This document shows, in pieces, positions 1-60,768 of a stretch of 64,000 nucleotides of DNA (positions within the stretch are counted from its first letter, which is position 1; each line of letters opens with the position of its first letter). Below the pieces are notes generated by a model that was given only the letters and a program-made list of their open reading frames with translations, did not search any database and was not told the origin of the DNA. Source of the DNA: Paragyromitra xinjiangensis (lineage: Eukaryota; Ascomycota; Pezizomycetes; Pezizales; Discinaceae); assembly GCA_038503065.1 (NCBI GenBank), contig JBCAMK010000011.1:1-64000 (forward strand), in the 5' to 3' direction. The position numbers were made by a program, and so were the translations under genes.

Positions 1-21
1 CAGCACCTACCTAAACCTAAA

Positions 22-195
22 CCCTAAACCCTAAACCCTAAACCCTAAACCCTAAACCCTAAACCCTAAACCCTAAACCCTAAACCCTAAACCCTAAACC
101 CTAAACCCTAAACCCTAAACCCTAAACCCTAAACCCTAAACCCTAAACCCTAAACCCTAAACCCTAAACCCTAAACCCTAAACCCTAAACCCTAA
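22..195. repeat. Telomeric repeat array (CCCTAAA)n
   Basis: About 24 perfect CCCTAAA units run from 22 to 189, followed by a partial CCCTAA and a switch to unique DNA at 196. Bases 1-21 hold degenerate units (CTACCTAAACCTAAA). A C-rich strand reading 5' to 3' at the left edge is the expected orientation for a true chromosome left end. The G-strand unit is TTTAGGG, the Arabidopsis type, rather than the TTAGGG usual in filamentous fungi. Confidence 0.96.
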
Positions 196-9712: not shown

Positions 9713-10198
9713 TTGCGGGGTTGGTACTCTACTCTGAAGGGCAACAACAGGGTTCATCTCGCTTGTTCCTTTCTCTTGATCACTTATGGCGCGATGTAGG
9801 AATCTCAGCGTCTGCTGAGGGTTTCGACATCCCTTGAAATGGACTGAACTACATGCAGTGGTTGTCGACGTAATAGTCCAAGAGATCTGTAGCACAAGCA
9901 ACCCATGCGAGACTAGTCTGTACGTGGGACCCTACCGTCCGCGAAGAACCAGGAAATGCAAGCAGAAGTTGGCCAATTAACCCGCTAATGTGACTAGGTG
10001 AGAGCAGATCAAGGTATTTTACTAGCAAAAGAAATTTTCTTGTTCTTCATGCCTTCCCCAAGTAGAGATGTAGCTTATTCTATAGAAAAATGTGTAGTGG
10101 TGGATGCTGGCAAAATTCCGCAAAACCCCATTCATTATAAAACATTAGATTATTTTCCCATATGCATCGAACTCAACAAAAAATTCCACTTCCGCTCC

Positions 10199-10930
10199 AT
10201 GCCACCCATTAGGAAAACGCCCCGCAAAAAACCAGAAACCCTCCCCGGACCATCGGGGGAAAGCCCACGTTCAAAATACAACTGTAAATGGACTCGAGAA
10301 GAAGACGATCTGATAATAGAGCTGCGTGCTCGAGGCAAGCCATGGGCTGATATTTCAACACAAGTTTCAGGGAGAAGCCCTACTGCATGCAGACTTCATT
10401 ATCAGAACTACTTGGAACGATTAGAGGGGAGCGAGGCAATAAAAAATTACTTTGCCACACTGTATCAAGAGTAAGCCATATCAGATTTGCAAGCAGGGTG
10501 TTTAGTTTTCAAATAGTCTATTAACGAAAGGTATAGGTCCAGGGAGGAAATGTGGAGCAACATTGCAAAGGAGCTGAGAATACCTTGGAAGGCTGCTGAA
10601 CGCATGTTCTTGCAGCTGGGTGAGGAGGGGGTAGCCGAGCGTACCGCGGAACCAATTTCTGCTAAGGATACCAATCCAGACGCCCTAAAAAATGACTCTC
10701 CCACTTCCGATCACCCTTCAGTATCATTTTCTGTCGGTAGTTTAGACGCTCCGGGGGCCGCTCCTGATATTCATCCAACACCATCTTCTACCGGTAGTTT
10801 GGATGCCTTAGATACCAACTCCGATCCTCCCTCAGGGCAACCCTCGAATCGGTGGATGGTTACAGTATTGGGAGGCAAGATTGAGAGCCCAAATACCTCT
10901 CATGCTGTTTGCGGAACTTATAATCATTAA
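10199..10930 (+). CDS. Fungal SANT/Myb-like DNA-binding protein
   Basis: Exons 10199-10470 and 10531-10930; the intron (60 nt, GTAAGC to AAAG) closes in phase. After a basic Pro-rich start comes a SANT/Myb repeat with the tryptophans in WTREEDD and WADIS and the family signature GRSPTACRLHYQNYLE. The second exon continues with REEMWSNIAKELRIPWKAAERM...QLG. That is the second half of a well-known ascomycete Myb family, in which the first repeat is followed by an MW...A...PW+AAE segment. A Ser/Pro-rich low-complexity tail follows, with repeats around STGSLDA. A nuclear DNA-binding role is inferred from the domain. The start is the ATG immediately before the basic region; the frame is also open upstream. 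Confidence 0.82.
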
Positions 10931-11567: not shown

Positions 11568-13734
11568 ATGACCATGGATATCGGAATAGAAATGAGCAAG
11601 AAACCAACTCCTCAAAAAACAGTTCATACGATGAGCGAGCCTCAGTCACATGTTACTTTAACTGCCACCTGCAAACAAGAGGACTCCTCAGTCGAAGACT
11701 CCATAGCTTCGTATTTTCAGCAGGCCTTGCAAGTCCCTCCTCATACTCCAAAAGCTAATGAACACACCTTAGAGTCTGTAAACCTAATGTCATATTTGGG
11801 TCCCCCACCACCAAGGGCTTTAAGACCCTTAATGGGGGGTTTTCAGGACAAGTTACTTGAAATAGTGACGGCGGATATTAGCAGCTCTCGGCAATATATT
11901 AAAGAGTCGAGCCAAATTGTAGTGGATGAAGGTGAGGATTAAACTTACTGCCAGTTTTTTGTTTTTTGTGCCCAGAAAACTCACGAGCAGTACCTTCAGC
12001 TGATACACCTACCTCTTGCAACGTTTTGCCAAGCATCATGGAGCCCTCATACGACACCACCGTGCTTCCAGTAGCCCCAGAATATCTAGATCCTATACCT
12101 TTGTCTTCAGGGATCCTACCAGGCAGCCCACCTCGGTCTCCAAAGCTCTCTCCGGAAGCCATAGCGTTTCCAGACAGCCCACCTCCGTCTCCAGAGCCCT
12201 TACCGGAAACTGCAGCACCTCTAGGCAGCCCACCTCTGTCTCCGGAACTCCTATCGGGAACCGTAACGCCTCTAGACGGTCCATCTCTGTCTCCAGAGCT
12301 CTTACTGGAAGCCATAGCACTTCTAGACAGGCCTTCCCGCGATGTTTCACACCCAGGTGATTTATTTATATCCCTAGGACGCGCTATAGCACCCCTAAAT
12401 AGCTCAACTCCGGGATCCCCGACGGAAGATACGGTACCCCTAGGTGGAACCGGAGCACATGGTTACTTCGGGGATCTGGGAAGAGAGGCAGATTCAAGTT
12501 TCTGTAAGTTCTGTATAAAATTATCTTCATGTTTCGACGACTAACAGTACCCTCAGTTGATCCGCGCCCCTCTAATGATACCCGTTGTGGTAAAACTGAG
12601 TTTTCAGGGCCTGCGACACCCCCAGAGAGTTCTCCCGTGTATGATCAGTCGCGGTGCAGTTCCCGGATGGGCTTTAGGAGGGATGAGGAGAGTTATATGG
12701 ATGAAGAAGAGGGTTGCACGGATGACGATGAGGAGGGTTTCACGGAGGAAGTGGATAACTATGTTCCTCGGAGCATTAATGAAGCGGAAGAGGAAGAAGA
12801 GCTTAGCTCTCATACACCTACTCAGGAGACATTTTACATATGCATGGGCAGGGCTGAATGTAAGTTCTGTGTAGGGTTCTCTTGCACACCGAAAGCTAAT
12901 AGCATCCTTAGCATCTACTTCTCGCGCCGTGGTCATAGAAGAAACCAAGAAACTTCAGCAAGAGGTAGCACAGCTCCGAGAAGAAACAGCACTGCTCCGA
13001 GAAGAAGCAGCGGGGCTTGATAGTAGATTTAAGCATTCATGGACTGAAGAGACGCATAAACTCTATCGTGAATGGAACGAAAAAATCGATTCTTTAAGCC
13101 CTTCCATTTCTCTGATCAAGAGTATGTTCCCTACAAATTTCATGCAACTAAATGGGCTAAAAATCTTGCTAGCGAAGCTCGACAATGTCTCCAAGCTCAG
13201 TGGTGACCGCACCCGTCTTAATAGAATCGAGGGTATGTCCCCCGCAAATTATATGCAACTACATTATCTGAAACCCTTTCTAGCGAAGCTCGACAATATC
13301 TCCAAGCTCAGTAGTGACCGCGCCCGTCTCGATAGAATCGAGGGTATGTCCCCCGCAAATTTCATGCAACTGCATGGGCTAAAAATCTTGCTAGAGAAAC
13401 TCGACAATATCTCCACCTATCTCGATAGAATCGAGGGTATGTCCCCCGCAAATTCCATGCAACTAAATCGGCTAAAACCCTTTCTAGCGAAGCTCAAAGG
13501 TGACCGCACTTATCTCAATGGGGTCGAGGGTATGTCCCCTGCAAATCTCATGCGATTACATAACTAAAAAACTTCCTAGCGAGGCTCGACAATTTCGAGG
13601 GACTCAACAGAGTCACACTTTCTCTCGCTTCTATCCTCTACATATTTATGTTTCCTTGGTTTGACAATTTCAGCATATCCAACAAAGCTGTCCTTTGCCT
13701 CGTCGTTGTTTTCTACATAGTGATGTTTTTCTAG
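11568..13734 (+). CDS. Coiled-coil protein with C-terminal membrane segments and a five-fold repeated intron
   Basis: Exons 11568-11931, 11976-12503, 12557-12859, then 12912 onward. The three introns (44, 53, 52 nt) are all phase 1 with GTGAGG or GTAAGT donors. The protein begins Ser/Thr/Pro-rich. Exon 2 has five Pro-rich repeats of about 20 aa (SPPxSPEx type), exon 3 an acidic stretch, and exon 4 a coiled coil (LREETALLREE). The last section has five copies of an exon plus an intron-like segment. Only the fifth must be removed, because it holds a stop. With all five removed the product is 587 aa; with only the fifth removed, 655 aa. The C-terminus has two hydrophobic stretches (LASILYIFMF and AVLCLVVVFYIVMFF), suggesting membrane anchoring. 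Function unknown. Confidence 0.7.
12119..12320 (+). repeat. Coding tandem repeat, about 60 bp, Pro/Ser-rich
   Basis: Four to five imperfect units, each with GGCAGCCCACCTC or its variant followed by TCTCC and GAGCTC, lie inside exon 2 of the preceding gene. They encode GSPPxSPE(L/P)L-type repeats. The unit length is a multiple of three, so the frame is kept. The mirrored open frames on other strands are shadows of this array. Confidence 0.75.
13122..13579 (+). repeat. Tandem array of five intron-like segments separated by mini-exons
   Basis: Intron-like segments: 13122-13172, 13233-13283, 13344-13394, 13437-13487, 13530-13579. Each begins GTATGT and ends with CTAG, and four of the five have a CTAAA-type branch site. 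Lengths are 51, 51, 51, 51 and 50 nt. The four 51-nt copies are stop-free and in frame; the 50-nt copy holds a stop and must be spliced. Between them lie exons of 60, 60, 42 and 42 nt encoding KLDNISKLSSDRARLDRIEG-like units. All junctions are phase 1. The array arose by duplicating an exon-intron unit of about 111 bp. Confidence 0.82.
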
Positions 13735-14206: not shown

Positions 14207-15013
14207 TACTATGTTTAGAAGGGAAATAACTCAGGGATTCAATCACCCAGTGCACGTGGAGAGGGTGGGGATTTGAAAGATAGGGAAGGTTAGCTGATCA
14301 TCTGAGTGACGTCGACTCGTTTGGACTATTCTCTTAGATCTACTTTTACTGGAAATCCACGAAATCCGAGGCCGTGAGGTTATGAGGTCTCAACCCTTGA
14401 CTGGAATTGGCTTGTGGAAACCTAGGCTACGGTGATCAAAGTCTGGGCCGCACCTTTGTCCTTCAAAAGATTTGCCGCCCTGCCGGCTTTCAAAATCTTG
14501 GGTTCTATCTACCACATTTTGCGAACTTCGGTCAAAAGGTGAGCCCTCAAGCAAAACTCGAATCACTAAGGTGTGCATACTTTATCGATACTATCAGCGC
14601 TTACTTGGGGAGAACTACCTGGCATCTGAAAAGTCACCAGTACGAACCGATAACTTCGATCACAGGAAATATGCGCTCTAATACTCAAGTGGTTTATCAA
14701 TACACGGAAAGCTGGCGTAGCTTAGGTATTTTAACTTCTAACTGCTACATGCTTTAATTAATCTAATACTAGTAGGTACTCCGTCAACTACCGCCGCCGA
14801 TGACGATCAAGAGCCACTATTAACCTCAGCGAGATTTCCAATCGGAGGTCGCTTTATCACAGGTATTTCTCCTCCTAGCTTTGAAACTTTGAGGTGTCAT
14901 CCCCGGACTGATAAGCATCGATATAAGCAATCTCATCCCGCTTCAAAGGGGCCCCATATGCTTGGGAACGTATCAAAGCAATCTTTCTGGAGGCTTCCGC
15001 TACTTGTCGGGCT
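14207..15013. other. Region upstream of Est1-like gene, exons unresolved
   Basis: The 5' exons of the following Est1-like gene should lie here but cannot be placed. The gene's frame stays open back to a stop near 14915 (encoding APYAWERIKAIFLEAS...). The open frame at 14407-14757 lacks recognisable features. Confidence 0.4.
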
Positions 15014-16907
15014 TTGAGAAACCTCCATAAATCTCTTTTTTGTTCCTTGCTATCTCTATTCGGGTATTACAGAGGTGGCGTCTCTAGCCGGGAGATTGAG
15101 ATTCAGCTCTCCGAGATTACACCCCCGAGTATCGAGTGGCTCATAGAGTCCACTAAAATTGCTTGTACCGAACTTGCAATGGCGGAAGCTAGATGCTACA
15201 ACCTCCATATCGAAATTGCAGCCACCCCTAGACATGTGAGTGGGATAGGGTGGTTGACATTGATGGAATCACACTGTGCGCTTTTGGATCAATACCATGA
15301 CTTCTTCGCCGCCTCACACCATCCTAGGGCGAGCCTTGCTCTCCGAAACTTAGCACTGAAATACTCAATGCCATCAAGGATGTGGACTTATGGTATATGT
15401 AGACTCCTAAAGCTCTTTTGTTGTGGGTTACCGAATTCTCTGGAGCATATGATAGCCTTCATTCAATTTTCCTATGGCATGATTGGACTTTGTAAGTCAT
15501 CTCGCGTCTTTTCACTTTTACGTCAAAATACCCTAAGTTAATCTCTGGATAGTGTATGAGACTACACCGGCTTTCGAAGGAATATGGATGGAGCTCCTAG
15601 GCAGTCTCAATATTTATCGTATGAGTATCGTGAATGATATTCATGATCACAAGCTATGGGCAGATGTTTCGAAATATTGGTACTCGAAGGCGATTGATAA
15701 AGACCCGCACCGGGGGGTTCTATATTTTCGTTTAGGTGTTTTGGCTGAACCAAACATTTTCCAGCAACTATTCTACTTCTTCAAGAGCCTCGGGGTAGCC
15801 AAACCCTGCTTTATGGCTGAGACCGCTATCTTGGAAACCCTCGATCTCGTTCTTGATCCCGAAAGTTCACCCTCGGTTGAAATACTGTTTTTAAAACTTC
15901 TTAGGATCGACTTTACAGGCACTAATTCGGCGGATTTTGACAATCTTCTTCTCCAATTTTTGGATCGTTTGAGTGAAGATTTCGGAAGCTCCAAGTCAGA
16001 GTGGGAGGTTTGCAACGCTGTCCCTAGCATTGATGAATTGAACTTAATCTAGGTGATATATGAACAGGTCGCCGGTGACTACATTGCGATATGCAACATT
16101 GTCTGCATGCATCAATATAATTTCGAGCACGGTCCTCTTCGAAAAGTCCTAAATAAGGGACCTCTCCATTCAGCCATGGACGAGACAGCTGTATAGGAAA
16201 ACGACAGAAATACTGCTGAGTTAGAAGAATTACTTCGGCATCATACTAGCGAGTTTCCGCTTCAGGGGGTCTCCGAGTCGGGGAACGTCAATATTGTTGA
16301 AGAAGCCTCCAGCAGAGTTGATCTTGAGCCAGCTAACATACCGGAAGATGCTTTGTGTACATGTGGTCTCCGACCCTTCATAAATTCCATGTTACTGACC
16401 TATGGGGTCCTCGAAATTGCGTTGAGACGAACCGACGACAAAACTGTTTTGTCGCACATACATATCTGGCTTGTTTTTATGACGTACATCGAGACTTCGA
16501 CGTCAGCCGCGAGGTTATTGGGAAAGGATTTCCCATGGCAAAGTTTGGCAACAATGCTAAACTACCTTGTAGCGAACTGCAACGGTTGGAATCTAGGCCT
16601 TGAAGGTGAAAAGTTCCCATTTCTGGGGGATGAGATGTGGTTGCCGGAGGACAATATTCTGCAGGGGTTTGATTGGTCTGAATTTTATTTCCCGGAGGGT
16701 TGGTTCGAGGATGTCGATAACGAAACGAGGTCTATGGAACTACCTTCGATGGTCTATGTCCGAATTGAACGTATCTTATGGCTTGCCGCTAAAATAACAA
16801 AAGTAAGGCTCGCAATTGTTTCTCAATGCGCTTTGGGTTCCGTAACTAATCGACTAAGCAATAGAGTAGCGAATTTTTGGTATATAAAGATCGAAAATTT
16901 ACCGTAA
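15014..16907 (+). pseudogene. Est1-type DNA/RNA-binding domain protein, disrupted copy
   Basis: Exons: about 15014-15491, 15553-16007, 16053-16802 (and beyond). The introns (61 and 45 nt) close in phase. The first two match the paralogue at 55.8-58.6 kb in position and phase. The central motif WADVSKYWYSKAIDKDPHRG then FYFFKSLGVAKP is the alpha-helical signature of Est1/SMG7-type domains (A..WY..A....P..G....L......N...Q..Y...SL....P). The C-terminal third (LSHIHIWLVF, FPWQSL, LPEDNILQGFDW, ERILWLA) is the fungal extension of this family. An in-frame TAG at 16194-16196 cuts the protein just after the Est1-type domain. The coding sequence resumes for 200 residues. The 5' end and last exon are uncertain. 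Family members act in telomerase recruitment or mRNA decay; for this paralogue the role is unknown. Confidence 0.8.
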
Positions 16908-24989: not shown

Positions 24990-27530
24990 GCGATTTTGGC
25001 AATGCAGAATAGCGACAAGAGGTAGGTGGAGATCCGACTTTTACTATGCATACTGACGAATATTTACATGTAGATTGACGACTTTGGCCTGCAGGCTGTG
25101 GACAGCGGGCCACGCGACTCCCAAATCAACTGCTGAATTGACACCCTCGCGTCCCGCAGTTCACCTCGACGTGTTTCCCAGGCCGTGGGATCTCGCTGAT
25201 ATTGACGCGTTTCGGGACGCGTTTTATTGATCTCTGGCAGCCAAACAGCTTCCGAATCAGCTGCCGAATCGACTCCTGAATCGACTCCAAATCAGCCTCC
25301 GAATCAGCTGCCGAATTGACTCCTGAATTGACTCCGAATCAGCTTCCGAATCAACTCCCGAGCAGCCTCCGAAGCAGCTGCCGAATTGACTCCGAATTGA
25401 CTCCCGACCACACGCCTCCCACAGCGCGCGTGGCAGCAGGTTCGGGCGCCTGGCAGAGCTCCTGGAGGTCGCTGTCTGCAGGTTGAGTACCCTGGGGACA
25501 TTTGTTTGTATATATACGATTTTTGCTATGCAGAGTGGCGACATTTGGAAGTACTTTTACGATTTTTGATATGCAGGTTTGGACTTCGGACCTGTGGCTC
25601 TGGCACCCACCCAGGCTGCGTGGGTTTCCCGCGATGGGGCTCTTAGGGCGGATCGGAACCAGTTCCTGGGCATACGCCACTTAGGCGAATAAGCACGAAA
25701 TTGGCAGCAAATAGACCTCGGAATTGGCAGCGAATAGGTCTTTGAATAGGTCTCTGAATAGGCAGCGGATTCGGCACGGAATTGGCAGCGAATTGGGCCT
25801 GCTTCGGCAGCTTCGGCTTCGGCGCGCTGGCAGGCGTGGTTCAGGCAGGAGTGCATGGTCTGAGTGGACTGGGGACATTGGAGAGGTATATATACGACTC
25901 CTGCTATGCCTTCTGGCGACAATAGGTTGCAGATATGCGATTTTAGGTATGCAGGCTGGTCAGGTCAATATGTACATATAAGCAATAGATTAGACAACAG
26001 GGGGGTAGATATGCGAATTTATTGATGCACTCTGGCGACAGCAACTTGTAGATTTGCGAATTTTCCTATGCACTGTTTGACAGTGGACCTGCTGTGGTTG
26101 ACTTCCCGCGATCGCGCTCTTTGGGTGGTTCGGAACCTGTTCCTCTCGATACGCCACTCGGCCGAATAAGCTCCAAATTGACTGCCAATAGGCCTCAAAA
26201 TAGGCCTCTATATTGGCAGCTCATAGGCCTAGGAATAAGCAGCGACTTTGGCAGCGAATGTCGCCGCGCTTGCGCCTAGAAATGACAGTTTGAGTTTTAT
26301 GGCGACAGGGCTTTGTACCTTTCCGACTGTTGCAATGCCTTGTGACGACAGTAGATTGTACCTTTACGATTTTTGCTATGCAAGGTTCGACAATGGACCT
26401 GCAGTTTGGTCTCCTACCCAGGATCGGTCGATTTACCACGATCGCGGAAAATGGGGTAGCGAATAAGGTAGCAAATAGAGACCGAATAGGGCTGAATATG
26501 GCGCCCAATAGGGGGAGCTGCAGCAGGCGTATTATTTGGCGCTGTGGCACATGGCGCGTGGGCGGGATCTACTGCAGGCGTCGCGGATTCGGTTCCTTCA
26601 CAGGATCTCACTCGGCTTCGCTTCCCGACGCTTGGAACAGCGAGTTCGACCTATTTGTAGACCTGTGGCGACAGGCCTTTGTACCTTTACGACTTTCTTT
26701 ATGCCTTCTGACGACAGTAAGATGTATATTCCCGATTCTTGCTATGCAGGTTTGGACATGTCCGGTCGATTTGTGTCGATCGACGGAAATCAACGGTCAA
26801 TTCTAGAGGCTTTGGCGTGGCGCGCTTTGGCAGCTCTTGGGCGTCTGAATAGGAGGCTGAATAGGCGCCTCCGTCGGCAGCGAATAGGGCAGCGAATAGG
26901 GAGGCAGGCAGGCGCGCCTCGGTAGGTTCACAGGTTCTCACTCGGTCGCGCGAATTGACAGTGAATAGAGCAGTTCTTTGGCAGCGGCGCAGGCAGGCGC
27001 AGGAAGGAAATGACTTCAGTTCTGGTTGGCGCTCGTTCTTTTGGAACTGTTCGTTTCTCCAACAGCGTTTCCACAGCTGGTTCGACCTATTCAGCAGTCA
27101 ATTCGGAGTCTATTCAGGAGTCTATTCAGCAGTCAATTCGGCAGTCAATTCGGAGGCAGGAAAGCACGGGATTCGGAGTCTATTCGGCAGTCAATTCAGC
27201 AGTCAATTCAGCAGGATTTGGAGGCTTAGAAACAGCCAATTCAGAGTCAATTCGGAGGCTTAGAAACAGCCGATTCAGAGTCTATTCAGGAGTCAATTCA
27301 GCAGTCAATTCGGAGTCTATTCGGGAGTTGATTCGGAGGCTTAGAAACAGCCGATTCGGAGTCTATTCAGGAGTCTATTCAGGAGTCTATTCAGGAGTCA
27401 ATTCGGAGTCAATTCGGAGTCTATTCGGAGTCTATTCAGCAGTCAGATCGGAGTCGATTCAGGAGTCAATTCAGAGGCTGCTCAGGACACTGTTTGGGAG
27501 TTGATTCGGAGGCAGTTGGATCAACAGCGA
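24990..27530. repeat. Complex satellite-like block built from two kinds of unit
   Basis: Two interleaved motif classes fill the block. Class A is a unit of about 90-100 bp with GGCGACA, TTTGTACCTTTACGA (or TATATATACGA), TTTTTGCTATGCAGG and GGACCTG, present at least five times between 25480 and 26770. Class B is short oligonucleotides such as GGAGTCAATTCAGCAGTC and GAATAGGCAGC, arranged as direct or inverted strings (25250-25400, 25690-25800, 26820-26900, 27090-27510). Class B gives long open frames with ESIQQSIRQSI-type translations on several frames and both strands, so I regard these as non-coding. Related copies lie at 17920-18060 and 62046-62760. Confidence 0.8.
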
Positions 27531-34081: not shown

Positions 34082-34432
34082 TACTTAATTTCGATTTTGA
34101 CTGCATACAACTTGGGAAGAAAATAAAGGAAACGAAAGAAACACTTATACTCCAAGCTATCTCTTAGTGCATATCATATTATAGACGTGACATAATTTTG
34201 AGCCATGCATACTCTATGCTAGCTGTGTGGGTCTCTTTCAGTTTTGCAGGTAACGAGGATTTAAAATTACTTTTCGTGGCGGTTCAGTATTTCCCTTTTT
34301 ACCAAACTATTTTCGGTCAAAAACTAGGATGGCCATTAAACTACCTCGTGTTTCCCGCTGAAACATCTATTATCGCAATTTGCCATTATCGTCAAACCTA
34401 AGGTACACATTCGATCACATTCTACAATTGCG

Positions 34433-35232
34433 ATGGATATCACAGAGAAAACCTCAGAGGGATGCCTCGCAGAATATCTAGATGAATTCCTAGACGCGTA
34501 CGGCAGCGCCCCAGAGCTAGAGTATAGCATGGAAGAATACTTGAAGAGTTCAAGTGGCCTAGAAAACGCAAGCGGCACTGAGATCGAGGACGAAAGCAAT
34601 TCGCAGAATGTGGAGTACTCAAAAAACGAAGAATACTGGCAATTTCAACAGCAACCCAGGAGTCGTGAAGACTTAAGAGACGAAAAGTACTCGCGGGGCG
34701 GAGGGTACTCACAAAACGAGGAGTACTTGCAAAACAAAGAGTACTTGCAAGGCAAGGGCGAAGAGCACCCGCAAGACGAATGGTACTCGCAAAACGAAGA
34801 GTACTCACGAAACAAAGGATATCCGCGGGGTGAAAAGTACGTAGGGGGCAAAGAAGGCTCAGAAGATGGTCAGTACTCGCAAAACAGAGGATACTCCGCA
34901 GATAGGGAACTAGAAAACGAGAGGAGCTTGGGGAACAAAGAATACGTAACGTCTTTAGGTCAGTTAACTTCTTCACCCGAGCTGGGAAAATGCATGCTGA
35001 ATAGATCATATACATACAAACAGCTGCACAATCTTACGGAAGCGATTATAGTCCTTATATTCCGGATCCTAGGGATGCTATTGGCGATACTATTAAGTAT
35101 ATGCCGGGAACTATGCAGGAACTAGAAGAGAAACTGGTTCGTATGGAAAAGGAATTGTCTGCAGAAATCCGGAAGAGGGTTGCTGCAGAGCGAAAGCTAT
35201 TCCAAATCCAAGGAATAATATTAGATGGATAG
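34433..35232 (+). CDS. Tyr/Glu/Gln-rich repeat protein with C-terminal coiled coil
   Basis: The ATG at 34433 opens a frame with an acidic N-terminus. About 15 short imperfect repeats of six to seven residues follow (EEYSQN, EEYLQN, DEWYSQN types; roughly residues 60-165). A proposed 65-nt intron (34959-35023; GTCAGT donor, CAG acceptor, phase 1) moves into a frame coding SYGSDYSPYIPDPRDAIGD, then MQELEEKLVRMEKELSAEI, a clear coiled coil, ending at a TAG at 35230-35232. Without splicing the frame ends at 35123 in a hydrophobic stretch (IIVLIFRILGMLLAILLSI), which would make a tail-anchored form. The donor is non-optimal, so both forms deserve consideration. Function unknown; the composition resembles disordered, assembly-prone proteins. 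Confidence 0.55.
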
Positions 35233-43635: not shown

Positions 43636-46600
43636 ATGAAGGTTATGAATCTCGTGAATAATTATCTCGACCGCACGACTAGTGCTGATCGGAAAGTAAT
43701 TTCAGCAAGCCTAGTCAATTTTATTCTTGTTAAGAAGAAAGGGAAAAGAGCCAGGAGATCGCCGGCGGATGAGGATGAAGACGATTTTCTCTGGGAGGCT
43801 ATGGAAACCCACCCCGAAGAGTCGGTCAGAGAAGTAATATCTATAGGCCAAGAGTTTGACTGTGATTCCGCCAAGAAGTTGATGGAGTGGGGGTTGAACG
43901 GAATTTCCTCTCATACAGAGATTCCTTGGCGTGCCCCGGCGGGTGAGACAGAGCATGACAAAATCCGGCGGCTACATAGGGCAGTTATACTCACAGAAAC
44001 TGAGGTCGGTTCGGCCGCCTCTCGGAGGCGATTGTCACACTTATTTTTAGCTTCTGCTCTTGAAGTACTTGGACCGAATGAGAGTTTCGCATTAGTAAGG
44101 CTTTTGGAGATAATCTATGGACAAGACTGGAACAATCAAGCAGGAAGCGGTGAAAAGAGGAAGAAGCAACTTAAATATAAACTTAAAGCTGGAAGAAGAT
44201 GGCTGCAGCTAGGGAAAGAGTTTGGCATCGGTATTGTTATGTTTCCAGGACTTAACTTTCCACATTCATTGTATGAAAAACCGCGAGGCTAGGGGATTTT
44301 GGCTAACGAATAAATAGCTTCGAACAAAAACTGAGAAAATCTGGTATCCAACTATTGATTGATTGCCTACGGGGATGCCGCCAAGATGTGTTAGAGATGG
44401 TTGCCGAGGCAACATCGATTATCACTCAACACATAGACATCACTCTTCCGCAATCAAATGAAGAGGACGGTAGGGATATCACCGCCTTCGCCCCTAGCAG
44501 CAGGCCTAGGCATAGAAATAAATCGTATCCTCCCGAGTCAAGTAACGATGGCGCACGGAGTGGGCAAACGATCATAGGCATTTCTCCATCACCGGAGACA
44601 CCAGAGACACCTGCCGCTGATATCCATAATGTGTCAGTAGAAGGCAAAGGGAAAGAACGCAACGCTCTAGTCAGTAGCAAGTTGAGAAACCGACGGAATC
44701 GCAGACACAGAAAATCAATTAAAGACAAGGAAGAAGCACCTCAAGTGATCCCAATCGCGGCAAAGCAGGCAGAAAATAGTGTCGGCCTAGCACCAAGGAC
44801 ATTGTATGAAGATTTGGGTATGCATGACTTACCAGATGAAGAGCTCGAGAGGGAAGGGGCATTCAAGGGGGCCTCGAGCACTGCAGGTGATCGGGTTGAT
44901 GCTTTCTATCCAGCACCGGGGGCGGACGCTGAGGTGAACGACCCAGTGGCTAGGATGGGGGAGGACGCTATCCTAGATGATAGAAATAACGGTGCTAGTC
45001 CTGTACCTCTGACAGCGGCTCAAGACTACGAAATGCTAGAGGACGAAGATACGGATCTTCCATTGGCAAACTTTGAAGCTACTCCCATGGCTTCGAAGCC
45101 AAGTCTGACGAGAACACTGTTTGGCGTATCAAGGGAAAATCCGACGGAGAGTCCCGTGAGCCTCGGTTTTGCGTTGCCGGAGGATGAGGACCAAAGCCGA
45201 ATAGGATATACCGGTAACTTGGGGATGCCTGAGGTGAATTCGTCGGGCTACCAACCAGAAATTTCCGCGCCAAATGTTGTGGAAGCCCCCATCAATATCG
45301 CCGAGTTCAGAGCTGACCTGCTGGAGGATGGGAATCAGGGCCAAATGGGGTACACAGTTAACCCGGAAATGCTTATGAATCTATCAGGCTACCAATCAGG
45401 AATTTCCTCGCCAAATCTGGCGCAAACTCCTATGGATATCGCCGGGTCTAGAGCTGACCTGCTGGAGGGGGGGAATCAGGGCCAAACGGGGCACGCAATT
45501 AACCCGGGGGTATTTGAGGTAGATCCATTAGCCTATCAACTGGCGGGAGCCCCTATGGGTGCTAGGTTTAGACCCATGGATGCTAGGTTTAGAGCTAACC
45601 CGCCGGAGGGTGGAGGTCGGGGCCAAACTGGGTACGCAATTAGCCCGGGGATGCTTGGGGTGAATTCGTCGGGCTACCAACCAAAAATTTCCGCGCCAAA
45701 TCTAGTGGAAACTCCCGATTTTGGAGTTTACCTGCTGGAGGATGAAACACAGGGTCAAACAGGAGATAATACTAACCTGAAAGTGCTCGAGTTCGGTCCG
45801 CCCAGTTACCAGCCAAACTCTGGCCCTCAGCATAACTCCACAAATGCTACCGATCTATCAACCGAAGCAGGGGATGAAGCACTCGAGGGAGTATTAAGTG
45901 CAGCTAGTAAAGCTCCAAGCCCTCACCTAACATACTTCCCATCTAGTGAAGATCTTTCTGTGCCACCCCAAACCATTGACCCGAGAGAAAGTGTTTATCA
46001 TGGAGAGAGTAGTCCAATTAGTCCGAGCCAGCGCACGCCAAATATAGTGCAGGACCCTATCAACTCAAGCCTTGAACCTGAACCCAAACCAGATGAAGTC
46101 ACACCCATGTTACTCCAAATCGCTGACCCAAGAGACAGTGTTCATCATGGGACTTCAAACCCTGTCCCAGAGAGCAGTCCAATTAGTCCGAGCCGGCATA
46201 CGTCAGACGTAGTGCAGGACCCTGTCAACTCGAGCCTTAAACCTGGACTCAAGTCGAATGAGGTCACATCCATGCCACGCCAAACCATCGACCCGAGAGA
46301 CAGTGTTCATCATGGGACTTCAAGCCCTGTCCCAGAGAGCAGTCCAATTAGTCCGAGCCGGCATACGCCAGATGTAGTGCGGGACTCTGTCAACTCGGGC
46401 CTTAAACCTGGACTCAAGCCGAATGAGGTCACATCCACGCCAGGCCAAATTGTTGACCCAATATCAGAGGTAGCAAATGAAGAAGTTAGTCCCGAAGCCT
46501 TTGGCTCTAACTCTATCGATTCGGAGATTGAGGTAGCAGATGAGACAATTAGTCCCGAAATTCCGGACCTTAGCCCAGTAAGCAACCCAATTGTTTCGAA

Positions 46601-55778: not shown

Positions 55779-58611
55779 CTAATAATCCTTTTCGACGGAA
55801 TGAAACACGTCAGATGGTGATGGCGGTGGTGAGTTGCTTAAGTAAACCCAATCATCATCTGGCAACACCATAGATGTATCCGCCATCTTGGCATCTGAAT
55901 CTTGCCGCACCGGCTCAGAGCTCATTATTGAAGCCACTTTGTATACCTCTATCCTCTGAAGTAGTAATGGGTGCACTGAAAAATACTCGTTTTCAAATTT
56001 CAAGAAATCGCCAGACTATCCATAATTCTGTCAGCTATTATACTCATAGGTAATAGATGCGGAAAGACCCACAGCTGCGATTCTTGAAGCTAACCAGAGT
56101 ATTCTTTCAGCTCTGAGATTATCCACCGATGATGACTCTGGCAACCTTTCCTCGCTGTCTAGCCGCGCACCCTTAAACCATTTCTCAGGGAAGTAAAGGC
56201 TAGCCCATTCAAGCCCACGCAACATGTAGTCCTCTGGCAATGGCCTACCAACTCCCCCCTTCGAAAATGGGAGCACTTCTGCTTCTAAATTTTCGTAAGG
56301 AAGGTCTTTAATTAGAGAGTTAAGCATCCTCACTAGAGACCGCCATGGGAACTCGTTTTCTAGCAGTTTGATGGCTGGTTCTGAAGTTTTGATATGCAGC
56401 ATAAATACTAGCCATATATGGACGTGAGACAAGATACTAGCATATCCAGTTCTCTCTAGGATAACTTCCAATATACCGTACGCAAGTTTCTTCGAATAGT
56501 CGAGGGAGATTTTAGAACATTTCAAGCAATCGAGACACTCTTGGTCGGCGTCCGATGGGGCTCCGTGTTGGTACCGGTCATCACTCTCCAGCCTTGAGTC
56601 TGGCTGAAGCAGCGGTGCGACATGCTCGAAGCTAGTGGACGCTGGAAGCGGGGGGAGGATGTCATTATATTCCGCAGTATTGCCAACTTCCGCGGAATAG
56701 GGAACGCCTGGTGGATTTTTCATATCCTCTTTCTCTATGCCCTCATTCATATCTTCTTCCATACCCTCTTTCACATCCCCTTTCGTATCCTCTTCCACTG
56801 GATGTCTCCGTCCTTGGCACCACGCGCGGCGAAGAAGACTGTCTTTGGCACCATATTGATAGAGCCCGACAATATTACAAATTGCTACCCAACTACCTGA
56901 GGCCTATCGTCAGGCTATTCGTCAGTTATCGCTAGGAAATCGGGGGATTGAGTTTTCACAAACCTCCCATTTCGGCTTTGAATCCCTGACATAGGTATCG
57001 AGGAGAAGTAAAATGCTCTCAAGGCTCTTGTCAAATTCATCTAAACCAATATGGGTGTAATTAATTCCATGCATATGGATGAATTCAGTTTCGAACAGAG
57101 ACTTCCGTGACGCGCTGTCTGGAACGAAAATCGAATCGAAAGTGGTGAGTATGCTCTCCCTAGTAGGGGAGAAGGGCTGGTTAACACCTAAACTCTTGCA
57201 GTAATAGAAAATTTCCTCGAGAATATTAGACCTAGTTGATATTGCAAGGTGGTGATATGGACGTCCAACGTGTGGCGTTTTCTTGACCGCCATGGAATAC
57301 CAAAACCGAGCAGTGTCGGCCCAAATATCACTGTCATCTTTTTCAACGGCCATCCGATAGCGAGCAAGATCCCCAAGGCATTCCGCCCACGTATCTTCCA
57401 GGGCAGGAACTGTTTCGTACACTATTTTAATATATGCACCATCAGCCTCCGATTGCAAGGTTTACTAACTTGCTGGTTGCGGTCGCGTGGCTGCGCGGGT
57501 AGGCGCAGATTAGGAACGACTTACGTAGACTCATAATGCTGTAGGCAAAGTAAATAAAGTATAACAGATGCTCCCGGGAGGATGGCAGATGGCGGCGAGC
57601 CAATTCCACGAAGCTGTAGATCCCATGGCGCCACATCCTCGTCGGCATAGCACATTTTAAAGCCAGTCTGTGTAGATCAGGGCCTGCGTTGGGATGTTGT
57701 GAGGCTAGTAAGAAGTCGTGATTTTCCTTCAGTAGAATCAGATGCAGCTTGACCAGAGCCTTCCACTGTTCGTTATTGAGGGGGTCTCCATTGGGATTCT
57801 GAGCAACGGCAGCTTGTTTGGCCTCAATCTCACGACACTTCGCCTCAACCATTACCAATCCAGCGTAGATCCCCTTCACTTCAGTTATGAGAGCATCATT
57901 GCTAATGGGCTTCATCTCGGGCTGCCTCACCATACACGGTGTTTCATCCTCCCCACCGGGAATACTGTAGGGCCAACCATCCTCCTCGCTGGAAATAGGG
58001 GAGGGCAAACTACCTTCAACGGAACCAGTGCAAAACCATTGATCATCGGGAGTAGAGCTGAACCAACTATATGTCCCTCTTTTAGCCATGTTTAGAAGTT
58101 TCCTGACCCGCTTCGGCCGTAAACTGCCTGAAACCATTTCTTCATCGGGGATACTGCAAGGCTGGCCATCCTCCTCGTTGAAAACAGGGGAGAACTGATC
58201 ACCTCCAACGGAAGTAATGCGGGACCAGTTATCATCGGGAGTATAGCTGGACTGACTGTATTTCCCTTTTTTAGCCATGCTGAGGAGTGTCCCGACCCAC
58301 GCTGGCCGTGAAATACCTGGGGCCACTTCATCGGGGATACTGCAAGGCTGGCCATCCTCCTCGTTGGAAACAGGGAAGGACTGATCGCCTCCAGCGAAAG
58401 CAATGCAGGACCAGTTATCATCGGTAGTTGAGCTGTACTGATTGTACTTCCGTATTTCGGCCGTTGTGGGAAGTATCATGACCCACTCCTGCAAACTGTC
58501 TGGGGTCATTTCTTCATCGGAAGTAGAACTGGACTGACCATCCTCTGGATTGGAGGCCTGCTGGTCTTTCCTATGGCCCTCGGAAGCTTTATCACCTAAG
58601 TTAATCTCCAT
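55779..58611 (-). CDS. Est1-type DNA/RNA-binding domain protein (870 aa), apparently intact
   Basis: Exons (minus): 58611-57525, 57421-56964, 56903-56073, 56015-55779; the 2613 nt close in phase throughout. Donors are GTAAGT, GTTTGT and GTGGGT. The N-terminal 200 residues hold three acidic repeats of about 62 aa (EEDGQPCSIPDE, TPDDNWS). A helical region follows (VKLHLILLKENHDFLLAS, LHRLALKCAMPTRMWRHGI). Next is the Est1-type core: IWADTARFWYSMAVKKTP then YHHLAI, FYYCKSLGVNQPFSPTRESI. The extension has LSHVHIWLVF, FPWRSLVRMLN, LPEDYMLRGLEWASLYFPE and AERILWLASRIAA. The last exon ends acidic with DDDWVYL. Classical Est1/SMG proteins serve telomerase or nonsense-mediated decay; this divergent subtelomeric class has no known job. 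The start ATG is the first in frame after a stop-free upstream stretch, so an upstream exon is possible. Confidence 0.85.
57950..58535 (-). repeat. Three coding repeats of about 187 bp in the Est1-like gene
   Basis: CAGGCTGGCCATCCTCCTCGTT-like strings recur near 58340, 58155 and 57970 on the plus strand, about 185 bp apart. The intervening DNA also aligns (GTTATCATCGG, ATTTCTTCATCGG). Each unit encodes about 62 residues. The tract is acidic and probably disordered. Confidence 0.85.
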
Positions 58612-60768
58612 ATATCTAATCAAATTTGAAAGTCAGGAGAGATAGCCATGCCTAGAACATTTTCGGGAACAGCTCCCTCAAGCTCGACCAGACCCAGAGA
58701 TGGGTCTCTTTTCTCAGCCCGCCCACGAGCATTCCCGGGAGAATGGGGAGTTTTCGCTGGGCAAATATCCCGTTTCTTGGCATCTTGACCTTGTGTTAGG
58801 GATATTCCTGATATTCCCAACTCTATCTCTTGAACGCCAGAGCTTCTAGTATGCTTCAAATCCTTTAACTGAGTTGGAAAGCCAGTGCCTAGCTTTCCTT
58901 CAGCATCGTTGGTGAGGCATTGGCAATAAGGATAATCCTCTGGGGACGATGCAGGATAGTCCTCTTTTCCGGGGGTAGTCGGCGAATTGCTTTGTATCGT
59001 AGGTCAGCGCGATTGCCCGAGGAGAATTGGAGGGGTAGCACCACCTTTGCTCACAAGAGTCTTTACGCCGAATCTGTAACTCGTGGCATCTATCTGGTTG
59101 GGAGGAATGACCTTCTTGTTGCTGCATTGCTGTCATGTGGATGCGGGAGGAAGGCCAGGTAGGTCAGTTAATGTGATAAGTAGAGTAAGTTTGGGTCAAC
59201 GGATGAGAAGGAGTGCTAAGGGTGTTTCCCGTCCTCTTATGGCTAATTGTAGGGTAGGGCGGTTCGCCGACAGAGCCTCAAGGCTTTCGATTGCATCCAG
59301 GCAATTTCTCCGCCGACGAATGAGTAATAGGTGCGCAGTAAAGGGGCAATTCTTTCTATCTATCCCGAGCAGTGCGAATTCGCACAAGGTTGAGGAGCTT
59401 TAGCTCAGGCGCCAGTGCATTGTTTGCTGTAGATATGAAGCTCTATCCCTGCAACAGATCTCTAATATGGTGGATTGACTCTAGGAATCAATACAAAGAA
59501 GGCCCGCAAAATTTGCGCCTTAATTTTCATTTCCCTCATCTGCTGGTGTGGTACGACTCAGGAATATTGTGTCCTTTTGCTAAAAGCACCCCTGTCCGCC
59601 ACACACCAGTTCCGCCATATGACTAGTCTTTGCTATATAACCCCCGTGGGGCCGTCATAGAACAATTGTGAGACTTGTCCCATCTTCGTATGCTTGACCC
59701 AAGTAGACTCCGTAAAACCTGTCTCATTCCCACATCCCTGACCCGAGTGCGTACTTTAGAACGGGTGGGCTATCCCATAGTCCGGTAGAAACGACGAGTA
59801 AGAGGGATACTTTCAACAGAGGGGGGGATAACGTTTAGTTAGCACGATAGAAAAGTGAGTATGAGACTAAAAAGCACATATAAGTACGTCACCCCTAAGG
59901 GGGCCGAGGGAACGACGAGTAAGAATCGCTATAACAAAGGTTTCTAACCTAAAGCTTAATGCTGTATCTATTCGGATGATTCTCTAAACCCAGAATCTCC
60001 AGCTACGTGGTGGGGATTAGGCTTGCATATTTGTGCTGGCAAGAAGTTTAGGGATACGAGGAGTATCCTTGCGATGGAGCAATTGGTTATAAGAACTTCA
60101 AGTCACAAATTGAAAGTTTCTCATTTGCCACGAGATCCAAACTTCTTGCCTACTGCTACAAACCCTGCACACTGTGTAAATACTGCATATACTGCATATA
60201 CTGCAGGATCGCTAGGTAACTACCCACAGGCTGCGCTTCCTCTATTCAAGCACCCTGCTTGAAATTACACTTCTCTTATTTCAGAAGGGTGGCAACCTAC
60301 CAGGAACCCAGTGACGGCGCAGTTCCCCAATTCGTTCCCCACTTTCTCCAAAGACAGGGCCCCTTCACATACCTCCTACTTCTGTAGAACCAGAAGAACT
60401 GGAAAACAAGGGGGTGTGGCTTCCTATGCAATGATATCTGTGCCCTATCCCATAGCATGCAAAGTCACCATCCCTTGCTTCCTGGTTCTTATGGTTCTAC
60501 CTTTATTTATTGTTGAAGGGAGCGAATGAAGCCATATCATGTGGCCCAGAGGAACTTTGTACCGACGGAAGAATAGTATTGACGGGGCCTGATATGTGAG
60601 AATGATTATAATAAGAGAATGGATAGTGGAAACAAGGGAATAAATAGGGGCAGGATCCCACCGAGTAGTTAGTTTCTCATTCAGAATAAACATCATCTCC
60701 TCTCTCATAATTTTATTTATAAGGGCTGAGGCTCAACCCTAAAGTCGTTATACACAAAAAAACCTATC
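58612..60768. other. Upstream region of the Est1-like gene; no resolved gene
   Basis: A stop-free minus-strand frame runs from about 58985 to 58620 (PTTPGKEDYPASSPEDYP... to GMAISPDFQI). It could contain a 5' exon of the Est1-like gene, but no ATG or join was found. MITE fragments lie near 59661-59753 and 59770. ACTGCATAT is repeated at 60180-60205. Confidence 0.45.
59661..59753. mobile_element. Fragment of the GTACTNGGGTCAGG MITE family
   Basis: ATTGTGAGACTTGTCCCATC and GCTTGACCCAAGTAG, then AAAACCTGTCTCATTCCCAC and CCTGACCCGAGTGCGTAC. Two right-hand ends lie in direct orientation, so this is a rearranged or nested pair. Confidence 0.5.

Follow-up and report, generated by a model that had tools for sequence, protein, structure and literature searches.

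The gene and its subtelomeric setting

The gene described here lies near one end of a contig of Paragyromitra xinjiangensis. The window (the whole stretch of DNA that was analysed, 64 kb) is the start of contig C11 in a genome of 48.2 Mb and 22 contigs. A CCCTAAA telomere array (TTTAGGG type, 26.7 copies, window positions 10-195) opens the contig, and the gene is located 11.6-13.7 kb from that end. TTAGGG or other motifs are found at the telomeres of most fungi examined (PMC10100673), and a TTTAGGG-type telomere looks unusual for a fungus.

The gene model runs from an inferred start codon, ATG at 11568, to TAG at 13734; the three introns within it are ordinary and short (44, 53, and 52 nt) and share phase 1. 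Such short introns, together with the enriched CTRAC branch patterns described below, point to a fungus. Exon 4 is followed by five intron-like segments, which carry on the phase-1 pattern of introns 1-3:

11568..11931, + strand: exon 1 (ATG at 11568), an open frame with an in-frame splice to exon 2
11932..11975, + strand: intron 1, GTGAGG...CAG, phase 1, placed by frame and splice motifs
11976..12503, + strand: exon 2, with a 51-nt coding repeat, Pro/Ser-rich, at 12124-12330
12504..12556, + strand: intron 2, GTAAGT...CTAAC...CAG, phase 1
12557..12859, + strand: exon 3, acidic
12860..12911, + strand: intron 3, GTAAGT...CTAAT...TAG, phase 1
12912..13121, + strand: exon 4, heptad coiled coil
13122..13172, + strand: segment 1, intron-like, 51 nt, stop-free
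13173..13232, + strand: mini-exon A, 60 nt
13233..13283, + strand: segment 2, intron-like, 51 nt, stop-free, branch-like CTGAAA
13284..13343, + strand: mini-exon B, 60 nt
13344..13394, + strand: segment 3, intron-like, 51 nt, stop-free
13395..13436, + strand: mini-exon C, 42 nt, shorter by 18 nt in frame
13437..13487, + strand: segment 4, intron-like, 51 nt, stop-free
13488..13529, + strand: mini-exon D, 42 nt, with an in-frame 18-nt gap that differs from that of mini-exon C
13530..13579, + strand: segment 5, intron-like, 50 nt, with an in-frame TAA when kept
13580..13734, + strand: last exon, two hydrophobic helices, ending in TAG

Introns 2 and 3 begin with the same 11 nt, GTAAGTTCTGT (12504-12514 and 12860-12870), and both are in phase 1. 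This common start is possibly a trace of an older exon-intron duplication.

The rest of the window contains two gene sets resembling each other, one on each strand (14927-15541 and 16197-16907 on the + strand, 56031-56903 and 57442-58632 on the - strand), which have in common motifs such as HDFFAASHHP/HDFLLASQHP and SHIHIWLVFM/SHVHIWLVFM. They look like genes of EST1-type proteins, but no Pfam model was found for either set at E<=0.1. The ORF at 9998-10474 (+) codes for a Myb-like DNA-binding domain (PF00249, E 4.1e-12). Another ORF, at 34340-35125 (+), combines tandem repeats with a hydrophobic C-terminal stretch, an architecture that resembles the gene studied here. Long tandem arrays are located at 57977-58486, 46004-46449, 45246-45507, and 27087-27476 (periods of 186-189, 165, 141, and 12-81 nt, respectively); none of the four has a unit bearing donor, branch-like and acceptor motifs by the criteria used here.

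The five-unit array and its copies

The first-pass annotation had described five segments of 51, 51, 51, 51, and 50 nt beginning with GTATGT and ending with CTAG, and in all five these motifs were recovered exact to the base. Its further description of the array was equally accurate: the five segments start at one codon position (phase 1), the spacers between them measure 60, 60, 42, and 42 nt, and a CTAAA-type branch-like motif is present in four of the five (CTAAAA in four, CTGAAA in segment 2). Segments 1-4 and their spacers do form one open frame (12875-13567), the TAA coming with segment 5. The array itself is not a product of chance; Tandem Repeats Finder scores it at 441 (period 111) and 286 (period 93). 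Since all five copies descend from one unit, they do not constitute independent evidence. The donor and acceptor columns are invariant (10/10) in the five copies, with 34 of 51 columns invariant overall (p=0.010, post hoc), which speaks for introns.

The same letters can be read in two ways. If the segments are removed, the pieces of 60, 60, 42, and 42 nt code for 20- and 14-residue repeats that prolong the heptad coil begun in exon 4 and lead in frame into a tail some 50 residues long, in which there are two hydrophobic stretches. If they are retained, the array is a plain coding repeat of 37/31 residues (RIEGMSPANxMQLxxLKxxLAKLDN...), in which GTATGT falls within Gly-Met-Ser and CTAG within Leu-Ala, the splice-like motifs having been copied from one ancestral unit. 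The last copy, being one base shorter, would then have broken the frame, or that copy alone would now be an intron. The continuous open frame of segments 1-4 and spacers speaks for the coding repeat, as do the ordinary coding tandem repeats elsewhere in this gene and in other genes of the window. The frame after segment 5 is that found between the other segments; it also fits the coding repeat, while being compatible with both readings.

Between copies of a segment or a spacer, differences amount to about 8-26%. The closest pair is formed by segments 1 and 3 (90%), which carry ATCTTG at the place where segments 2 and 4 have CCCTTT in common; this 1/3 versus 2/4 pattern suggests that a two-unit block may have been duplicated. 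In the six pairwise comparisons among units 1-4, segments differ at 50 of 306 bases and mini-exons at 44 of 259, so the segments change no faster than the spacers, as would be expected of a coding repeat. Codon-position bias compared among the copies was uninformative. No RNA hairpin was found in any of the five segments (z from -1.78 to 0.20).

No homologue or paralogue of the gene emerged from our searches. A segment pattern of 26 bases with up to 3 mismatches has 5 matches in 48.2 Mb, all inside the array, and a DNA search of the genome found nothing segment-like outside it. Compared with the genome, the tail matches only itself, with no paralogue, and exon 1 has one credible match, its own, besides two weak ones (E 0.137) that are not credible. 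The protein collection, searched by a method that depends on common short words, gave no match for the retained ORF (E<=1) or for the fully spliced protein (E<=0.1).

Composition, splice signals and the predicted protein

A coding score contrasted the codon usage in 37 sampled long ORFs with 65 intron-like sequences, which were picked by eye from about 100 listed among the 579 matches of a CTAAC pattern; judging by the control, roughly one in four of such matches is due to chance. The interiors of segments 1-4, scored in frame, reach -2.0, -4.7, 0.0, and -2.8 bits. Coding windows have a mean of 5.7 (sd 5.0, 5th percentile -2.0), stop-free intron frames (n=58) a mean of -3.0 (sd 3.2), and the mini-exons score 6.2, 8.3, 4.7, and 6.7 per 39 nt. 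The 65 intron-like sequences have a mean G+C content of 0.41, and the segments (0.35-0.45) are similar. In segments 1-4 and their spacers the frame is open, yet the composition of the segments is intron-like.

The contrast between segments and coding sequence is weaker under a simpler background, where 9.3% of 1,286 core coding windows and 6.5% of 277 subtelomeric windows (ORFs and exons of the window) score as low as the mean of the segments. This still places the segments at the edge of the coding windows, which argues against the coding repeat, although their composition amounts to approximately one observation because the four copies are related. The last exon scores only -0.9 per 39 nt, though it is probably coding, and low scores are thus no proof of introns. 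The similarly low score of this presumed coding tail can be counted in favour of the coding repeat.

Splice signals were evaluated by counting donor, branch and acceptor patterns in the whole genome and in reversed-pattern controls. GTATGT followed by CTAAA and YAG occurs 229 times versus 214 in the controls and is not enriched, while the CTAAC pattern (579 vs 157) and the CTGAC pattern (372 vs 119) are. In a 250-kb sample with four donor types, CTAAA was found 20 times versus 9.4 expected from Markov shuffles and CTAAC 21 times versus 5.8; these counts are small and several unrelated words were raised too. Enrichment of CTAAA therefore depends on the null, reversed controls or Markov shuffles, and as the 250-kb counts are small we adopted the whole-genome counts with reversed controls. 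By this measure CTAAA behind GTATGT is unenriched, which is a point for the coding repeat. An open-frame filter applied to the 250 kb retained 26 donors versus 10 and 7 in two decoys, and CTAAA was present in none of the 32 candidate introns selected by open frames.

On the other hand, a coding unit would seldom carry such motifs. The arrangement GTATGT, CTRAN and YAG occurs twice in 50.8 kb of the 37 long ORFs, i.e., in about 0.4% per 111-nt unit, and with GTRHGT donors six times (1.3% per unit), both counts being small. A chance of about 0.4-1.3% per coding unit stands against the coding repeat. The arrangement of donor, branch and acceptor was found in none of the 13 other tandem arrays chosen from 36 Tandem Repeats Finder rows. 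For an intron, in turn, the chance of being stop-free in this phase is about 0.5, multiplied by one third for a length of 3n, which makes the 3n length and lack of stops in segments 1-4 mildly unexpected. Selection against stop-free 3n introns is reported for several species (Jaillon et al., cited in PMC2911113).

At the protein level, removal of the segments yields a better coiled coil. The repeats obtain a COILS-type score of 1.38 in the spliced form versus 1.11 in the retained one, and the coil contains 7 Pro and 9 Gly with segments 1-4 kept versus 1 Pro and 4 Gly with these removed. These residues, brought into the coil by the segment peptides, speak against a coding repeat. The placement of the removed stretch is less well defined, as four of eight valid shifted removals (-24 to +3 nt) outscore the true place. 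Hydrophobic periodicity is 19.2 with the segments removed versus 17.4 with these kept. In 5,000 trials, random removal of four 17-residue windows reached 19.2 in 0.5% of cases; when the removals were moved by a common offset of -24 to +6 nt, however, values of 17.9-22.0 resulted, and periodicity does not separate the intron and coding readings. Since shifted removals score as well, the coil argument indicates that something around GMSPAN is better out, and does not single out these exact boundaries. In amphipathicity, the segment peptides do not stand out from simulated intron translations: of 4,000 such translations, 70% were equal to or above them.

Pfam searches had E limits of 10 for the spliced and 0.1 for the retained protein, and rows at E<=0.1 were counted in both. 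The spliced coil with its tail matched 22 models, several of them named coiled coil and several within the repeats, none at the curated cut-off. The retained ORF, a tail-less construct, matched six, four of them in or overlapping the upstream coil. Its match to SAM_GIDA_C has E 4.7e-6 and 26.7 bits (just below the cut-off of 27.1), with no single stretch passing. Such a match would favour a coding repeat; it is, however, a whole-protein sum over the repeats and is gone in three single-segment pieces, which may be short enough for filters to lose such matches, and a GidA-like domain was rejected. The retained ORF, when its structure was predicted without an alignment, gave an uninformative model with a mean pLDDT of 44.7, residues 58-218 being below 50.

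The sequence behind the array also speaks for splicing. An open tail frame with two hydrophobic helices after removal of segment 5 appeared in 0.3% of 20,000 shuffles, so the membrane tail is probably real. No form gets to it except through acceptor 5. Were segment 5 spliced, the other segments, which closely resemble it and have identical donors and acceptors, would probably be spliced as well.

Proposed intron multiplication and the alternatives

The reading of the array as real introns multiplied together with their exons, put forward in the first-pass annotation, is the one we favour with some reservation. Composition, coil quality and the membrane tail stand behind it, the tests of composition and heptads being of moderate strength, while the open-frame repeat reading and the unenriched CTAAA count against it. 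Under this reading, an ancestral phase-1 intron of about 51 nt (GTATGT...CTRAAA...CTAG) would have given rise, together with the adjoining mini-exon, to five copies, presumably through unequal crossing-over or through slippage in replication, at a distance of about 13 kb from the telomere. Most transcripts would probably lose all five introns, and the product would start with a Pro/Ser-rich and acidic region, continue as a long coiled coil of 20- and 14-residue repeats, and finish in a membrane tail. As segments 1-4 are 3n and stop-free, they could remain unspliced with the protein intact, whereas acceptor 5 would be needed for the tail.

The closest known case among the literature listings examined is CNN00420 of Cryptococcus neoformans, a single-copy gene with identical, EST-supported introns 3-5 (PMC2395259). 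There, a longer repeat of about 107 nt includes the whole intron, the repeat number varies among strains, and repeat expansion was proposed as the cause of intron multiplication (PMC2395259). Both are single-copy fungal genes with near-identical introns (candidate ones in our case) inside a tandem exon-intron repeat. Unlike introns 3-5 of CNN00420, the copies described here differ by about 8-26%, four of them are in frame and stop-free, and their status as introns is putative (PMC2395259 for comparison). The word "rare", which had been applied to such a duplicated exon-intron unit, is fair, if qualified by this close precedent (PMC2395259).

Multiplication of an existing intron has been distinguished from creation of a new one (PMC4974935). 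In TOUCH3 of Arabidopsis, tandem duplication carries the whole intron and flanking exon sequence, as is proposed here, with two duplications there and five units here (PMC4974935). Nothing closer appeared among the listed matches of the literature on tandem exon duplication. Introner-like elements are spread over unrelated genes in hundreds of copies (PMC4457414). The array resembles them in that near-identical introns (candidate ones here) are found in a fungus; this explanation was rejected, as all five copies found lie in one gene, together with their exons.

Among the alternatives to multiplied introns, the plain coding repeat deserves the most attention, and we hold it to be a tentative possibility. 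Its open frame, the equal pace of change in segments and spacers and the CTAAA counts are countered by the composition, the motif arrangement and the Pro and Gly residues discussed above.

A special case of the intron reading, which we consider unlikely, is that segments 1-4 are regulated optional introns, similar to exitrons, providing many coil lengths. Exitrons are defined by alternative splicing (PMC4484396). Segments 1-4 are stop-free GT-AG segments in a coding exon and segment 5 is not, the coding status of the surroundings being taken from scores. The likeness to exitrons, drawn from sequence, extends to the position within an ORF and to 3n removal resulting in an internally deleted protein; the tandem copies and the intron-like G+C content set the array apart (PMC4484396). 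The G+C content also argues against optional introns, as Arabidopsis exitrons have GC above that of introns (PMC4484396). Poor branch sites, in turn, could make removal leaky.

The capacity for such variation is considerable. All pairings of donors and acceptors give 89 forms, and every combination using acceptor 5 (55 of 89) keeps the frame, yielding 55 distinct proteins of 519-655 residues that reach the tail; the remaining 34 end at one common stop. Enumeration also reproduced the previously claimed 16 tail-reaching forms obtained by single-segment removal without exon skipping. The 16-32 length variants attributed to optional removal are arithmetic, i.e., capacity and not evidence of use. 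That the gene works as a combinatorial splicing array, with five interchangeable phase-1 pairs, 3n mini-exons, up to 55 in-frame membrane-anchored coil forms and acceptor 5 as the sole obligatory site, seems to us doubtful, and somewhat more so than optional removal as such.

Least probable is a broken or mis-assembled gene, whose short fifth unit would be a sequencing or assembly slip or which would be a decaying subtelomeric orphan: the lack of a homologue in the protein collection and of a credible second copy in the genome and the position of the repeat array near a telomere agree with it, but the mini-exons and exons 1-4 score within the coding range and the frame, the three further introns and the tail fit together.

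If the segments are introns, the number of introns in this gene would have grown by repeat expansion, with four copies that can be retained in frame and one that cannot. The array would then be a natural test of the tolerance for stop-free 3n introns and of coil length change through splicing or copy number. If the segments are coding, the array would serve as a warning that a coding repeat can mimic an intron array and may possibly be a case of a coding copy becoming an intron.
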